This document shows, piece by piece, positions 42,639 to 51,344 of a stretch of 64,000 bases of DNA. The notes beneath the pieces are model-generated. The model saw only the letters and a program-made list of their open reading frames with translations, did no database searches and was not told the origin of the DNA. The stretch is from the NCBI GenBank assembly GCA_947503575.1, contig CANNDZ010000002.1:248001-312000 (forward strand), written 5' to 3'. The stretch comes from an uncultured Kordiimonas sp. (GTDB taxonomy: Bacteria; Pseudomonadota; Alphaproteobacteria; Sphingomonadales; Kordiimonadaceae). Positions within the stretch are counted from its first letter, which is position 1; each line of letters starts with the position of its first letter. Both the position numbers and the translations under genes were made by a program.

Positions 42639-44024
42639 TTATGCTTGTGCCTGCTGCGCGGCACTCGGCTGCAAAGCATTGAGGGCATCCGCCAGCATCT
42701 GCCCTGCGGGACCATTTTGCAAAATTGCCTGCAACTGTTCATACCCATCCAAAATTGATGTTTTATCGTCTTTCCATTGGCCTAGGTATTCTTCTAGTCC
42801 CTGGTTGTACTCGATCGCCGCATCCACTTCCGGGTTGCTGCCCATCCGATACGCACCGAGCCGGATCATTTCTTCCATATCGGCATAGGTGGATAGGAAG
42901 CGCCGCGCTTCCCGCACTAGCAGGTTCTGCCTATCGTCATTACAGCGCGGCATGGTCCGGGATACGGACTTTAGGATATTGATGGCAGGGTAACGCCCGC
43001 GTTCTGCGATGGCACGTTCCATTACGATATGGCCATCCAGAATACCGCGCACGGCGTCTGCGACCGGTTCGTTATGGTCGTCGCCTTCCACCAACACAGT
43101 GAACAGGCCGGTAATGTTACCGCTGCCGCGCGGGCCGGGACCAGCACGCTCCAGCAGCTTTGGCAGTTCGGTGAACACGGTTGGCGTGTAGCCCTTGCTG
43201 GTTGGCGGCTCACCGCCAGCCAAGCCAATTTCCCGCTGGGCCATAGCAAACCGCGTAACGCTGTCCATAAGGCACATAACTTCCGCGCCAGTGTCACGGT
43301 AATGTTCCGCAAGGCTCATGGTAAGATAAGCGGCCTGCCGTCTCATCAACGCACTTTCGTCGGACGTGGCAACCACAACGACCGACCGGGCAAGACCGTC
43401 CTCGCCCAGATCGTCTTCGATAAACTCCTGTACCTCCCGTCCCCGCTCGCCAATCAGGCCGATAACACTGATATCACTGGCAGAATGCCTGGCAATCATG
43501 GACAACAGCACTGACTTGCCAACACCAGAGCCAGAAAAAATACCCATTCGCTGCCCCCGGCAACAGGTGACAAACGTATTCAGCGCGCGAACGCCAAGGT
43601 CAACTTTTTCACCCACCCGTTGCCGGCTATGAGCGGGCGGCGGTGTACCCCGGAGCAATTTAGGCTGATGTCCATGACGGATGGGTCCTTTGCCATCAAT
43701 AGGTTCGCCCAGCGCGTTGACAACACGTCCAAGCCAGCCCTTTGACGGAAACACCATGGGTTCTGATTGGGTTACCAATGCCTTGCAGCCAACGCCGATG
43801 CCTTCAACGGCACCAAATGGCATCGCAAGGGCTGTTTGTTCCCGGAAGCCAATAATTTCAATAGGTACACGGCGGCGGTCACGCGTTTCGACCTCAAGGC
43901 GGGAACCGACAGAGATGTAGTTTCCGATACCGGCCAGTTCAACCAACAAACCACGCACACCCGTTACGCGACCGTAACGACGTTCAGTTTGGATGCGATC
44001 AATTTCCTTGATTAGGCTGCGCAC
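42639..44024 (-). CDS. fliI: Flagellum-specific ATPase FliI
   Basis: A 461-residue ATPase of the flagellar export apparatus, related to F1 beta. Walker A GSGVGKS lies at 165-171, followed by [13 protein letters not shown] and the [21 protein letters not shown] block. I start at GTG 44024 ([12 protein letters not shown]), which has GGGGG five bases upstream; a TTG at 44036 is also in frame. It leads a two-gene operon with fliJ and is divergent from ctrA. Confidence 0.95.
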
Positions 44025-44051
44025 GCATGCCCCCAATGACTATTTGCAAGA

Positions 44052-44317: not shown

Positions 44318-45025
44318 ATGCGTGTTCTCTTGATTGAAGATGACCCAACCATCAGCCGCAGCATCGAGTTGATGCTGAACTCCGAGGGTTTCAATATCTA
44401 TTGTACCGACCTTGGCGAAGAAGGCCTGGACCTTGGAAAGCTGTATGATTATGACATCATTCTGCTAGATCTGAACCTGCCGGACATGCACGGCTATGAC
44501 GTATTGAAAAAGCTCCGCACCGCGAAAGTCAATACGCCAATACTCATTTTGTCTGGCCTGAATGAAATGGAAAACAAAGTCAAAGGCCTCGGCTTTGGCG
44601 CAGACGATTATTTGACTAAGCCTTTCCACAAGGAAGAGCTGGTTGCGCGTATTCATGCGATTGTGCGGCGTTCCAAAGGGCATTCACAGTCAATCATCAA
44701 TACAGGCCCGCTGGCTGTTAACCTGGATACCAAAACGGTTGAGGTAAGCGGCAAGCGTGTGCATTTGACCGGCAAAGAGTATGCAATGCTGGAGCTGTTG
44801 TCGCTTCGCAAGGGCAGCACATTGACCAAAGAAATGTTCCTGAACCACCTTTATGGTGGCATTGACGAACCAGAATTGAAAATTATTGACGTTTTCATCT
44901 GCAAGCTGCGCAAAAAACTGGCCGCCGCCTCTACCGGACAAAATTATATTGAAACCGTATGGGGACGGGGCTATGTGCTGAGAAACCCGGCTGAAGAAGA
45001 AGGTCAGGAAGCTGCGGCTAGCTGA
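44318..45025 (+). CDS. ctrA: Cell-cycle response regulator CtrA
   Basis: A 235-residue OmpR-type regulator very close to CtrA of other alphaproteobacteria. The receiver (1-118) begins RVLLIEDD and carries phosphoacceptor Asp51 in [15 protein letters not shown]. The DNA-binding domain has the CtrA-specific block [19 protein letters not shown] and ends in [13 protein letters not shown]. It controls flagellar, chemotaxis and cell-cycle genes after phosphorylation through ChpT, which is also in the window. The C terminus ends AAAS, not the double Ala used as a ClpXP signal in Caulobacter. It is divergent from fliI and followed by a terminator. Confidence 0.97.
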
Positions 45026-45119: not shown

Positions 45120-45959
45120 TTACTTGAAGCCCATCAGTTCTTCGGCGTTGCCTTCGGTGGACACATACATGCCTCGCTGACCGCGTACCGGGCGTAATTT
45201 ATCAGTAATGCCTAAAACTGTTTCTGCGGCACCAAGGAACAAAGTGCCGTCTTTTGGAAGCACACCGTGCATCCGCTCCAACACATCTTTCTTGGTCGGC
45301 TGATCAAAATAAATCAGCACGTTGCGGCAATAAATGACGTCAAACGATCCAAGTATATTGAAATTGCTGAGCAAATTGAACGGACGGTAAGTGACCATAT
45401 TGCGAATGTCATCGTTCAGCCGCCAGACATCGCCTTCCTGCTTAAAATACTTAATCAGCATCTGGATCGGTAGACCGCGCTGCACCTCAAACTGGCTATA
45501 GGTGCCGGCTTTGGCCTTTTCCAAAACCTGTGTGCAAATATCCGTACCTACGATTTCGATATTCCAACCCTGCCACTTTGCCCAGTTTTCTTTTAACAGG
45601 ATGGCCAGCGAATAGGGCTCCTGCCCCGTAGAGGCCGCTGCACACCAGATCCTTAACTTGCGGTTCGGGCGCGCCTTTTCCATTGCTGGCAGCACATGGT
45701 TTTTGAAAATATCAAACGGCGTATTATCCCGGAAAAAGAATGACTCGTTAGTAGTCATCGCTTCCGTCACATCTTTGATGAGAGCCTCATCGCGGCTCAT
45801 ACGCAGCTTTTGGATAAGCGCATCCAAGGTTTCAAGGCCACGCTTGCGCGACAACGGCGTTAGCCGGCTTTCCAGCAGATACACCTTGTCCGGCGTCAAC
45901 ATCAGCCCAGACTTTTCCTTCAGCAAGCCAGCGAGGAACTCAAAATCCTGGTTCTTCAC
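45120..45959 (-). CDS. cheR: Chemotaxis methyltransferase CheR
   Basis: A 279-residue SAM-dependent enzyme that methylates glutamates of chemoreceptors. The N-terminal helical domain precedes the SAM fold; AAASTGQEPYSLAI is the glycine-rich SAM loop and YCRNVLIYF the conserved later motif. The start is GTG at 45959 with AGGAGG six bases upstream, overlapping the cheB stop (GTGA). It is last in cheA-W-Y-B-R. Confidence 0.95.
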   Translation of the reverse strand: MKNQDFEFLAGLLKEKSGLMLTPDKVYLLESRLTPLSRKRGLETLDALIQKLRMSRDEALIKDVTEAMTTNESFFFRDNTPFDIFKNHVLPAMEKARPNRKLRIWCAAASTGQEPYSLAILLKENWAKWQGWNIEIVGTDICTQVLEKAKAGTYSQFEVQRGLPIQMLIKYFKQEGDVWRLNDDIRNMVTYRPFNLLSNFNILGSFDVIYCRNVLIYFDQPTKKDVLERMHGVLPKDGTLFLGAAETVLGITDKLRPVRGQRGMYVSTEGNAEELMGFK

Positions 45960-47262: not shown

Positions 47263-47628
47263 CTAAATAAGGCCAACCTGGGTGAATTTGGCTTCAATGA
47301 TCTCGCGGTCGAAGGGCTTCATGATGTATTCATTGGCCCCAGCCTCAATCGCCATGCGGATATGGGACATGTCATTTTCCGTTGTGCAGAAAACAACAAT
47401 CGGTTGCTGAATACCGTCCTTCGCGCGAAGAGCTTTCAGGAATTCAAGACCGTCCATCACTGGCATGTTCCAATCGAGCAGCACAACATCGGGCAAGTTT
47501 CGCTCACAGGCGTCCAGTGCATCCTGGCCGTCAACAGCTTCTTCAATTTCGAAGTTGATCTCTTCCAATATTCGCCGGGCAACCTTTCGGATTACCTTCG
47601 AATCGTCAACGACAAGGCATAGTTTCAT
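47263..47628 (-). CDS. cheY: CheY-type chemotaxis response regulator
   Basis: A 121-residue single-domain receiver. The acidic pair is VVDDS, Asp52 is the phosphoacceptor in VVLLDWNMPVMDGLEF, and the switch Lys is in YIMKPFD. It would carry the signal from CheA to the FliM/FliN switch. It is 58 bases after cheW and 20 before cheB. Its resemblance is to the alphaproteobacterial cheY2 type rather than the enterobacterial one. Confidence 0.93.
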   Translation of the reverse strand: MKLCLVVDDSKVIRKVARRILEEINFEIEEAVDGQDALDACERNLPDVVLLDWNMPVMDGLEFLKALRAKDGIQQPIVVFCTTENDMSHIRMAIEAGANEYIMKPFDREIIEAKFTQVGLI

Positions 47629-47686: not shown

Positions 47687-48172
47687 TTAAGCCGCTTTAC
47701 TACTGCTTTCAAATGCCAGAAGCCGGTCCACATCAAGAATTGGTAACAATTGATCCTTAAGACGATAAATCCCGATGCTGACTTCCCTCCAGCGTGGATC
47801 AAGCGTCACTGGATTTTTCTCGAAAAGTTGGTCTTCCAGCGACAATACTTCACCAACCTTATCAATCTGCAGACTGTATGGCTCTTCGTTGTGCTCTACA
47901 ACAACAGACATGCTTGACTTGCCTTTTTCAAGAGGCGGCAGGCCAAGCCGCCGACGCAGGTCAATGGCAGTAACAATACGACCGCGCAAATTTAGCACGC
48001 CCGCGACCCAGTCTGGTGCCCGTGGGATGAGGGTAATTTGCTGGGTGTTCAAAACGTCGTGGACAGCAAGAACAGGAATACCAACCATCTGGCCATCCAG
48101 CATGACCGTCACAAAATCCTGAACCCCGGTTGTCACCAGGCTCAGATCATCGCGTACAACGATATCGTTCAT
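47687..48172 (-). CDS. cheW: Chemotaxis adaptor CheW
   Basis: A 161-residue CheW-domain adaptor linking receptors to CheA. FVTVMLDGQMVGIPVLAVHD, ITLIPRAPDWVAGVLNLRG and RIVTAIDLRRRLGLP are the family blocks. It starts with an ATGA overlap with the cheA stop codon, so translation is coupled. Confidence 0.95.
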   Translation of the reverse strand: MNDIVVRDDLSLVTTGVQDFVTVMLDGQMVGIPVLAVHDVLNTQQITLIPRAPDWVAGVLNLRGRIVTAIDLRRRLGLPPLEKGKSSMSVVVEHNEEPYSLQIDKVGEVLSLEDQLFEKNPVTLDPRWREVSIGIYRLKDQLLPILDVDRLLAFESSSKAA

Positions 48173-51100
48173 GCTGCGTCTCCCTTAATTTTGAACTGCT
48201 GCGAAAGGCTGCGCAACAAAGTGTCTTTGTCAAATTTAGCAACATAGTCGTCAAACCCAGCCTCGAAACCACGATTGACATCCCGCTCATTTGATAGCGC
48301 CGACAAAGCAACAAGCCGTGTGTGTGCCCATTCCGGGTTATCACGAACAGCCTGTGCAAGCTCATAACCCGTCATGTCCGGCATTTCGATATCAGAGATA
48401 ATCAGATCAAAGTGATTGCCTGCTTCCAGCCGGTCCAGCGCAGCCTCGGCGCAATTCACAGCGGTGACATTATATCCGGCAACGGTCAGGATCGGACGCA
48501 GCATGTTACGGAAAAAGTCACTGTCATCGACAACAAGAATGTTTTCTGCACTGCGCGAAACGCTGGCTTCTTCGCTCATATCCTTGCTGCCCAGCCATTC
48601 TGGGAAGGCCAGACCAAGATAATGCGTTACATCGATCACTTCAGAAGCTTTACCGTTAATAACCGCAGAGCCGATTACGCCGTCTTTGTCAGACGCTAGT
48701 TTGATCTCCAGCTCATCTTCGACAATATCGAGAATTTCATCCACCGCGAGACCCATGGTGAACTGGCGGTCCGTAAACACCAACACAGGCTGGTTACCAT
48801 TCTCGCGCAAATTCATTGACTGATCTGCCAGGATAAGCGGCATCAAGGCGTCACGATATTGGACCATCAGGCGGCCATCTGAAGTTTCAACTGTTGATAT
48901 GTCGATTTCTTCAAGGCGCGCTACCAACGACAATGGCACTGCTCTTGGGTGGGTTTGACCCGCACGGAAAAGCAGCATGCTCTCCTTATCGCTTGCCGCA
49001 GCACGGCGAACCAGTTCTTCGTCTTCCTCGTCCTCAGCGGCGGCAACGCCCTGACTTGCAAGGGCTGCAATACCGTTAGGGTCAAGGATCATAATAACGC
49101 TGCCGTCCCCGAGGATGGTGTTACCTGAATAGATGTCCAGGTCTTTCAGGATCGGCGCTACCGGCTTGACCACAATTTCTTCGGTATCAAAGACCTGATC
49201 CACAACAATACCGAATGTAAAGGTGCCAACCTGTGACACGATAATGAAGTCGTCAGTCGTTGTGCGGTCTTCGTTTTCGGCGATTTCGTCAAAGCCCAGA
49301 ACTTCGTTTAGATACACCAACGGCAACAAACGGTTCCTGAGACGGAGCACGGGCGTATCATTGATCATTTCGATTTTGTGGTCGTTTTCGCCGGCTCTTT
49401 CAGCGCTTGCAGCCCGCACCAGTTCCAGAACACTGATTTGAGGGATCGCATAGCGCTCGTCTTGCGCCTTGACGATCAGGCCAGCAACAATCGCCAGTGT
49501 CAGCGGAATCTTGATTGAGAAGTTGCTGCCTTTGCCAACGGTGGAGACCATATCAATGGTTCCGCCAATTTTTTCAATGTTTGAACGCACCACGTCCATA
49601 CCCACACCACGGCCAGACACACTGGTAACTTGCTCCGCCGTTGAAAATCCGGGGTGGAAAATAAATTTCTGGATTTGCGCCTCGGACATACCCGCGAGCT
49701 CGCCCTCTGAGGCAAGACCTTTTTCAAGGATTTTTTTGCTCAGCTTCTCTGGGTTGATCCCCCGACCGTCATCCTTGATTTCGATGATGATATGGCCACC
49801 TTCATGGTATGCATTCAGGACGATTGTACCCATCTCGGGCTTACCACTCGCTATCCGCTCGGCTGGCGATTCGATACCATGGTCCGCAGAATTCCGCACC
49901 ATATGTGTTAGCGGATCTTTAATCAGTTCAAGAACCTGCCGGTCCAGTTCCGTGTCGGCACCGAGCATCTCAAGCTCGATTTTTTTATCAAGCTCAACGG
50001 TCAGGTCACGCACAATGCGTGGCAGTTTTGCCCATGCGTTGCCGATTGGCTGCATGCGCGTTTTCATAACATTTTCTTGCAATTCGGTAGTGCACTGGCT
50101 CAGCCGCTGTAGCGGAACACCCAATTCGGAATTATCCATGTTGCGTGTGATCTGCAGTAACTGGTTTCTGGTCAACACCAGCTCGGAAACCATGTTCATC
50201 AGGTCTTCCAGCAGATCTACATTCACCCGTATCGACTGAGTGGAACGCCGCGTTTCCTTACCAGCCTGCGGTTGCTCGGCACCAGGCTTCGCTTTGCCTG
50301 CGGTTGCTTTTGGTTGGGCAACTTCTTTAGACGCGTTAATCACCGCCTCGCGCACAAGTTCAAACATCATGACAGCTTCGTCGGCAGTGTCTGCATCTAC
50401 CTGGCACTCGACCAACACGGTTTTCACAAGGTCAAGCATCGCGTCGAACTGAGGTTCACCAAAACCGGCAACGGTTACCAACTGGCGCCCCACAGCATCT
50501 GCTGCATCCATATCATCTTTAAAGAGGGCCAGCATCAGCCCCATGAAGCGGCCTTTGCGCTGCTCAGTGTCTGTGCCTTCAAAAAACTTAGCGAACTTGT
50601 CTTCATTTTCGACGCGCTGGCTAACCAGATGTGCTGCAACCGCGATTGTGTCTTCGCCGCCAATCCGGTCAAACAGACTGGCACTGCTATCTTTGCCAGA
50701 TGGTTGCGATACAGGGGTTTCTTGCACATCGGTATCGCCTGGCCCTGGCGCATTGGCGAATGCTGCTTCAAGCTCTTCCAGCGATACTTCGCCGGCTTTT
50801 AGCGGCCGACCCAAAACTGGCTCGATAATCTCTCCGTCCACGGTATCGGGTTCGGGGTCTGGCGCGGCAGCGGGCGCATCATTGCCTTCAGCGATGGCGT
50901 CAAGGCGGCCAATAAGCTCACTGTCGTCGCCTTCAGGCTCTTCTTCTGTGGCTTCAAGGCCTGCCAGAATTTCCTTGATTCGGTCCAGGCTTTCCAAAAT
51001 CACTGTTACGGCACTTTCAGAAACCTGCAATTCGCCGTCCCGGAATTTACCCAGAACATTTTCTGATGCGTGCGCGACCGATTCCAGTCGCGGTAGACCG

Positions 51101-51258
51101 AGGAAACCACAGGTCCCTTTAATGGTGTGAACAAGCCGGAATATATTGTCCAGAACTTCCTTATTGTTGGGGTCCTGTTCAAGCTTCACAAGCTCAACGT
51201 CAACAACGTCAATGCTTTCGCCTGTTTCAGTCAGAAACTCATTTAATAGATCGTCCAT
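48169..51258 (-). CDS. cheA: Hybrid chemotaxis histidine kinase CheA with a truncated-globin-like insert
   Basis: A 1029-residue CheA. Domains from the ATG at 51258 are: Hpt (about 1-105, phosphorylated His44 in VHTIKGTCGF), acidic linker, a truncated-globin-like segment (about 193-310), dimerisation helices (about 337-400), HATPase (about 430-586; N box HMVRNSADHG, G box DDGRGIN), two CheW-like domains (about 590-735 and 760-890) and a C-terminal receiver (about 905-1029; Asp956). The globin-like part opens LFDRIGGEDTI and contains KFFEGTD, but has Gly at the expected proximal-His position, so ordinary haem binding is doubtful. The P2-type docking region seems to be replaced. An ATG at 51300 is in frame; 51258 has GGGAAG upstream. 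Confidence 0.93.
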   Translation of the reverse strand: MDDLLNEFLTETGESIDVVDVELVKLEQDPNNKEVLDNIFRLVHTIKGTCGFLGLPRLESVAHASENVLGKFRDGELQVSESAVTVILESLDRIKEILAGLEATEEEPEGDDSELIGRLDAIAEGNDAPAAAPDPEPDTVDGEIIEPVLGRPLKAGEVSLEELEAAFANAPGPGDTDVQETPVSQPSGKDSSASLFDRIGGEDTIAVAAHLVSQRVENEDKFAKFFEGTDTEQRKGRFMGLMLALFKDDMDAADAVGRQLVTVAGFGEPQFDAMLDLVKTVLVECQVDADTADEAVMMFELVREAVINASKEVAQPKATAGKAKPGAEQPQAGKETRRSTQSIRVNVDLLEDLMNMVSELVLTRNQLLQITRNMDNSELGVPLQRLSQCTTELQENVMKTRMQPIGNAWAKLPRIVRDLTVELDKKIELEMLGADTELDRQVLELIKDPLTHMVRNSADHGIESPAERIASGKPEMGTIVLNAYHEGGHIIIEIKDDGRGINPEKLSKKILEKGLASEGELAGMSEAQIQKFIFHPGFSTAEQVTSVSGRGVGMDVVRSNIEKIGGTIDMVSTVGKGSNFSIKIPLTLAIVAGLIVKAQDERYAIPQISVLELVRAASAERAGENDHKIEMINDTPVLRLRNRLLPLVYLNEVLGFDEIAENEDRTTTDDFIIVSQVGTFTFGIVVDQVFDTEEIVVKPVAPILKDLDIYSGNTILGDGSVIMILDPNGIAALASQGVAAAEDEEDEELVRRAAASDKESMLLFRAGQTHPRAVPLSLVARLEEIDISTVETSDGRLMVQYRDALMPLILADQSMNLRENGNQPVLVFTDRQFTMGLAVDEILDIVEDELEIKLASDKDGVIGSAVINGKASEVIDVTHYLGLAFPEWLGSKDMSEEASVSRSAENILVVDDSDFFRNMLRPILTVAGYNVTAVNCAEAALDRLEAGNHFDLIISDIEMPDMTGYELAQAVRDNPEWAHTRLVALSALSNERDVNRGFEAGFDDYVAKFDKDTLLRSLSQQFKIKGDAA

Positions 51259-51344
51259 GGCCACTTCCCGGCGATTTTGCGCCTGTATAATTGCGTTCAA
51301 ATGCCCCCAACACCTGTGGTGCAGGGGTCACCTTGGCGAAAAAG

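Follow-up and report, generated by a model that had tools for sequence, protein, structure and literature searches.

Proteins of two kinds already known come close to the domain considered here. One kind consists of chemotaxis receptors (MCPs) that carry a truncated globin; the portion of PMC6194562 consulted describes Cc_4972 of Corallococcus, an aerotaxis receptor that combines Bac_globin, PAS and MCP domains. The other consists of non-haem globin sensor domains, for which the consulted portion of PMC11617747 lists the N-terminus of RsbR, pXO1-118 and the N-terminus of MabR; RsbR_N is also named in the excerpt of PMC9237108. CheA is described in the abstract of a survey of CheA architecture as a histidine kinase without a sensor (input) domain (PMC10782961). 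For the 13,673 CheAs of that survey, the auxiliary domains given in the consulted text are P2/CheY-binding, CheY-like and CheC/CheX, the F5-type layout is given as two CheW domains plus a receiver, and the word "globin" occurs nowhere in the main text. No description of a globin in CheA was found in open-licence PMC full texts, among the matches listed, and no CheA-globin fusion appears in the excerpts of PMC13401364 and PMC4720485. An earlier note, made from the sequence of the present locus alone, had called a haem-free globin in a chemotaxis kinase unusual, and knew of no described case. For a haem-less trHb1-type globin in a CheA linker this agrees with the open-licence literature, among the matches listed; it has to be extended, since the domain belongs to a wider set of alphaproteobacterial fusions, some of which have both the proximal (F8) His and the B10 Tyr.

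The window, the whole 64,000-nucleotide stretch of DNA that was analysed, comes from a marine bacterium, an uncultured Kordiimonas sp. Its CheA globin appears haem-less but preserved, and relatives elsewhere keep apparent haem-binding versions. The features of the che cluster are as follows.

48169..51300, minus strand: cheA, a 1043-aa open reading frame from TTG; a probable ATG start at 51258 gives 1029 aa
50971..51252, minus strand: P1 (Hpt), phosphotransfer domain, Pfam PF01627, 59.5 bits, residues 17-110
50683..50958, minus strand: P1-globin linker, residues 115-206, containing LGRPLKAGEVSLEELEAAF; zero Pfam families at E<=1 and no P2
50329..50682, minus strand: haem-less group-I truncated-globin domain, residues 207-324
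50059..50238, minus strand: P3 dimerisation domain (H-kinase_dim), Pfam PF02895, 56.5 bits, residues 355-414
49498..49917, minus strand: P4 ATPase domain (HATPase_c), Pfam PF02518, 67.5 bits, residues 462-601
49066..49482, minus strand: P5 (CheW-like), Pfam PF01584, residues 607-745, with a second CheW stretch also matched
48211..48540, minus strand: C-terminal receiver (Response_reg), Pfam PF00072, residues 921-1030
47687..48172, minus strand: cheW, Pfam CheW, 111.7 bits, sharing 4 bases with the end of cheA
47263..47628, minus strand: CheY-like receiver, Pfam Response_reg, 103.3 bits
45956..47242, minus strand: cheB, Pfam CheB_methylest, 198.6 bits, plus Response_reg
45120..45959, minus strand: cheR, Pfam CheR, 204.1 bits

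The gene order is cheA, cheW, cheY, cheB, cheR. Within CheA, Pfam gives the order P1, linker, globin, linker, P3, P4, P5, second CheW and receiver, with all four core domains (P1, P3, P4 and P5) over the cut-off. Two CheW domains, a receiver and the absence of P2 place the protein in class F5, a class assigned here by layout and not by published phylogeny. Neighbours on either side of the cluster are a histidine phosphotransferase (PF10090; 51444-52085, minus strand), which we take to be ChpT-like, an OmpR-type regulator (44318-45025, plus strand) that presumably resembles CtrA, and an ATPase (42639-44036, minus strand; called from the open reading frame list) that we assume to resemble FliI. 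In the window LGRPLKAGEVSLEELEAAF lies upstream of the globin; the CheA linker of L035, which has no globin, contains two similar stretches, and the CheA linkers of L189 and L190 have repeats of their own. The LGRPLKAGEVSLEELEAAF stretch is possibly a docking peptide in P2-less CheAs.

Profile searches identify residues 207-324 as a truncated globin, which confirms the earlier observation of a truncated-globin-like domain at 50329..50682. When excised, the segment scores 26.0 bits against Bac_globin (PF01152), over the cut-off of 21, whereas within the whole CheA it scores 19.1 bits, so that a scan of the complete protein at the cut-off misses it. The segment shares with truncated haemoglobins (trHbs) the sequence profile, the Gly-Gly motif and the CD1 Phe. 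Its model has a predicted 2/2 globin fold and matches truncated haemoglobins, in line with the earlier suggestion that the fold is retained. NCBIfam returned zero matches for the segment, and RsbR_N gave no Pfam match at E<=10. Protoglobin (the globin-coupled sensor family, PF11563) was rejected at 12.2 against a cut-off of 25 bits. A P2 fold, which would have spoken against the globin call, was also rejected: Pfam gives no P2/CheY-binding match at E<=10 in CheA or in the segment, and none at E<=1 in the P1-side linker. P2 and RsbR are absent from the best 50 fold matches of the model as well, an absence that says nothing by itself. Chance or a frame artefact was dismissed because the gene is one unbroken frame in the window and the domain is found in all 29 genomes of the window's family; in 27 of these it lies in a single unbroken frame of 1025-1117 aa, and in the remaining two (G017 and G008) the CheA frame is cut at contig ends.

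A second globin-like match, at about residues 776-871 in the second CheW region, scored 36 bits in the window CheA with the first of our own profiles. A single-sequence search, against a database of about 45 proteins, found nothing at this place in the window CheA; many relatives gave weak matches there, of which the best (13.8 bits, E 1.7e-4) belongs to the second frame of L032. Two later profiles built from linker and P5 globins gave no match at this place. We attribute the 36-bit match to a chance similarity that the first profile had picked up, and no second globin is claimed in this protein.

The positions that matter for haem binding are encoded at four codons.

50629..50631, minus strand: H224, at B7, an invariant His of the clade
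50620..50622, minus strand: S227, at the B10 (distal Tyr) position
50581..50583, minus strand: F240, the CD1 Phe, kept
50488..50490, minus strand: G271, at the proximal His (F8) position

The ordinary haem ligands are lost, and the earlier assignment of Gly for the proximal His, Ser for the B10 Tyr and a kept CD1 Phe was correct. A survey of related CheA proteins, which the earlier note had proposed, extends this to the whole clade. In 36 kordiimonad-type rows, a set that includes duplicates (the window is L082, and other genomes may repeat) and contig-end fragments, F8 is Gly in 22, Ala in 11, Met in two and Ser in one, and His in none; B10 is Ala in 17, Ser in 14, Gly in two and Cys in one of the 34 rows with the residue; CD1 Phe is present in 35 of 35. 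By comparison, F8 His and B10 Tyr are each found in 9/9 haem-type CheA globins, a set picked by its F8 His, and in 22/22 free trHb rows, a set that excludes L001 (B10 Val) as well as some fused globins. Over all non-CheA globin rows, F8 His is present in 27/29, the exceptions being two CheW fusions, and B10 Tyr in 24/29. L001 (G000:C3:139467-139796) is a stand-alone truncated globin of the window's genome, with an F8 His and 40.8 bits; the globin tree sets it well apart from the CheA domain.

These substitutions suggest a haem-free domain. It is very improbable that the globin still binds haem, or another tetrapyrrole, through a non-standard ligand: the CD1 Phe is kept, Met and Cys residues are present, and some other proteins ligate haem without a His, but the sole conserved His is H224 at B7 (34/34 kordiimonad-type rows with the residue), a position that is Asp or Glu in 8/9 haem-type CheA globins and 21/22 other trHb rows. 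The small residues at F8 and B10 and a short E-F loop, which has 3 residues in the model of the window domain against 9 in that of the haem-type L043, also speak against such binding. Other haem-less lines differ in how the site is changed. Both B10 and F8 are Phe in L032, L037, L039, L157, L158 and L161, the F region is shortened in L162-L165, and L029 has Gln at F8 with the B10 Tyr kept.

Conservation of the domain bears on whether it still has a function. The domain could be a passive spacer or a relic on its way out, a former sensor whose fold merely fills a linker that tolerates it. Mean identity over 276 pairs is 0.95 for P1, 0.90 for P3, 0.84 for P4 and 0.66 for the receiver; at 0.57 the globin has the lowest value of the folded domains of CheA and does not exceed the P1-side linker (0.62) in overall conservation, and the following linker stands at 0.31. 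More decayed copies also exist (L167 and L192, both below Pfam detection), and the domain is absent from the close relatives L027 and L028. All of this would fit a relic. Since L027 and L028 retain a full CheA, the globin is dispensable to the chemotaxis proteins in some lines. However, the domain is present in every family genome and almost free of indels, its gap fraction rounding to 0.00 (against 0.05 in the P1-side linker) with a one-residue gap in L026. Globin dN is below that of both linkers in 8/8 close pairs, and two of these pairs, those with a globin dS below 1, give globin dN/dS values of 0.055 and 0.129 (own NG86 script; among the other six pairs, globin dS is infinite in two and above 1 in four). 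In addition, D217, H224, G254, D262, A267, M311 and E314 are invariant in kordiimonad-type rows with the residue and are not conserved in haem-type trHbs; decay does not make new invariants, and these point to a new or changed function. A mere spacer is quite unlikely on this evidence. The comparisons argue instead for selection to keep the globin, with a constraint that is moderate, because the domain changes more quickly than P1, P3 and P4 and by identity is no more conserved than the P1-side linker.

The position of the domain would also allow a different role. The globin lies between P1 and P3, where P2 usually sits, as the earlier note had stated. Conceivably it takes over the function of P2, binding CheY or CheB and so delivering them to P1. 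The shared position, the lack of P2 in the window CheA and the new invariant charged residues, which could form an interface, are consistent with this docking role. On the other hand, Pfam finds no P2 or CheY-binding match at E<=1 in any of five globin-free relatives scanned (5/5), so docking does not need the globin, and haem-type versions in the same place suggest a sensory origin. We consider docking unlikely. The same five relatives bear on history: because they too are without P2, the globin appears to have joined a P2-less linker instead of replacing P2, so the earlier remark holds for position only. Sequence alone cannot choose between a sensory and a docking role.

The fusion is not confined to the window's family. 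In a class sample of 385 genomes, 142 CheA-like rows (a hand count at >=287 bits with the window P3-P4 as query) include 19 with an in-frame globin, a match being counted if it shares contig and frame length. The linker copy has F8 His in 7/19 (G087, G334, G236, G119, G123, G151 and G109, the last with B10 Phe) and lacks it in 12/19. Both F8 His and B10 Tyr are kept, at the same place in CheA, in L043, L145, L149, L153, L155, L156 and L160, and the linker copy of L154 has F8 His with B10 Phe. Two further haem-type CheAs, on cut contigs (G224 and G255:C237), fall outside the 142-row list. Bac_globin scores 38-69 bits in six haem-type CheAs scanned, and 122.7 bits for the two copies of L149 combined. 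Pfam places Bac_globin over its cut-off in 8/10 CheAs scanned as one set, the failures being L167 and L192. L167 (G166, one of the 12 without F8 His) is known from our own profiles, and L192 (G351, a twentieth) is a very degenerate globin-like stretch at 20 bits with an own profile; these two calls are weak, since Pfam matches neither. The gap between P1 and P3 is mostly 71-148 residues in globin-free CheAs versus 175-257 in globin-bearing ones, and the globin-free CheAs with longer linkers (L035, L187, L188, L189 and L190) have a low-complexity look on reading. In a wider phylum sample, 76/398 genomes have a match; most of the strong ones, many from one family, are not CheA, because their frames are of about 120-320 aa, and one new CheA fusion was found, in G766.

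Several related observations were made along with this survey. Two CheAs have an additional truncated globin, which keeps F8 His and B10 Tyr, inside P5/CheW: at L149:4978-5337 (G087) and at residues 656-779 of the CheA frame of L154 (G109). These genomes belong to different families, and in each of them the insert interrupts the CheW profile at about positions 62-69. L159:2679-3884 is a CheW with a C-terminal globin without F8 His (Bac_globin, 41.4 bits), L168:3546-4643 is a CheW with a C-terminal globin-like domain without F8 His (own profile only), and L147:3465-6329 is an MCP with N-terminal Bac_globin plus PAS, the type published for Corallococcus. G496:C14 and G605:C275 have tandem truncated globins in single frames of 289 and 316 aa; they belong to family f188, of the same phylum, which is rich in such genes. 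The haem-less CheA of L032 and L039 (G406 and G328) is split in two frames, by a stop in L032 and a frame change in L039, and is whole in L037, of the same clade; the breaks may be either real or assembly errors.

Trees of the CheA core, with the linker globin outside the columns used and the P5 inserts removed, suggest a history with several changes. Two versions were built, one of 77 rows, from which L142-L144 (duplicates) and L022 and L025 (partial) were dropped, and one of 63 rows, with 14 more rows out (long branches, near-copies and the partial L043). The rows were partly gathered by their globin, so their proportions are not frequencies, and rows were labelled haem-type on the presence of F8 His, which includes L154. 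Globin presence requires at least 10 changes on the 77-row tree and at least nine on the 63-row tree. Among globin-bearing rows, haem-type and haem-less states interleave and require at least six changes on both trees. The backbone is weak, and the starred branches alone force three changes for the haem-type group and five for the haem-less group; one clade with support 100/98 unites the haem-type L153 and L155 with the haem-less L166. Because the states interleave, haem was probably lost repeatedly, which is the simplest reading. Repeated insertion of a globin is a possible alternative, because a common origin of all linker globins is neither demonstrated nor rejected by the globin tree (AU p 0.18). 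For the same reason, one ancestral haem sensor is our inference.

These data lead us to favour, with confidence slightly better than even, a cis-acting sensor module that was originally haem-based and is kept in this CheA as a haem-free regulatory globin. On this reading, an alphaproteobacterial CheA of the F5 type and without P2 would have gained a group-I truncated haemoglobin in the linker between P1 and P3, and this globin probably began as a haem-based gas sensor that influenced the kinase in cis. The kordiimonad/iodidimonad line would then have given up haem ligation but kept and refitted the globin fold, with small residues at B10 and F8, a shortened E-F loop and a new set of invariant residues. 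The haem-less globin is most likely still regulatory. Its two ends are tied to the phosphodonor P1 and to the dimer/kinase core, so a shape change driven by a ligand or partner could alter access of P1, and in this way the domain may change the reach of P1 to the kinase core or to response regulators. The input may be a non-haem ligand or a protein partner, as is likely for RsbR and other non-haem sensor globins. More tentatively, and with less than even confidence, some CheAs may carry a sensor of their own, a linker globin joined in two genomes by a P5 globin, for a direct, receptor-free response to O2, NO or CO, and several lineages, the window's among them, may have independently made it a haem-free regulator with a different input. 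The earlier interpretation of the domain, as a haem-free sensor or docking module, is partly supported overall.

The occurrence of haem-type and haem-less globins side by side in the P1-P3 linker of alphaproteobacterial CheAs suggests a cis-acting input to this kinase. The CheA globins form a natural series for asking what the globin fold does after haem loss, and the haem-type CheAs make a receptor-free effect of gas on autophosphorylation directly testable. By fold, the closest relatives are the group-I truncated (2/2) haemoglobins of PF01152 (1dlw, 1dly, 1idr and cyanoglobin), with which the window domain has in common the profile, the Gly-Gly motif, the CD1 Phe and the predicted 2/2 fold; unlike them, it is without F8 His and B10 Tyr, has a short E-F loop in the model and is fused inside CheA. 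Cc_4972 likewise has a truncated globin built into a chemotaxis signalling protein, but that protein is a receptor, whereas the window's is a kinase. Judged by alignment and predicted fold, the domain resembles the non-haem sensor globins of RsbR, pXO1-118 and MabR, being a globin fold that is part of a signalling protein and has no haem ligands, and it may, like RsbR, sense a ligand or partner and change the output. Those domains sit in other regulators, whereas this one is of the trHb1 type and lies in the linker of a chemotaxis kinase.
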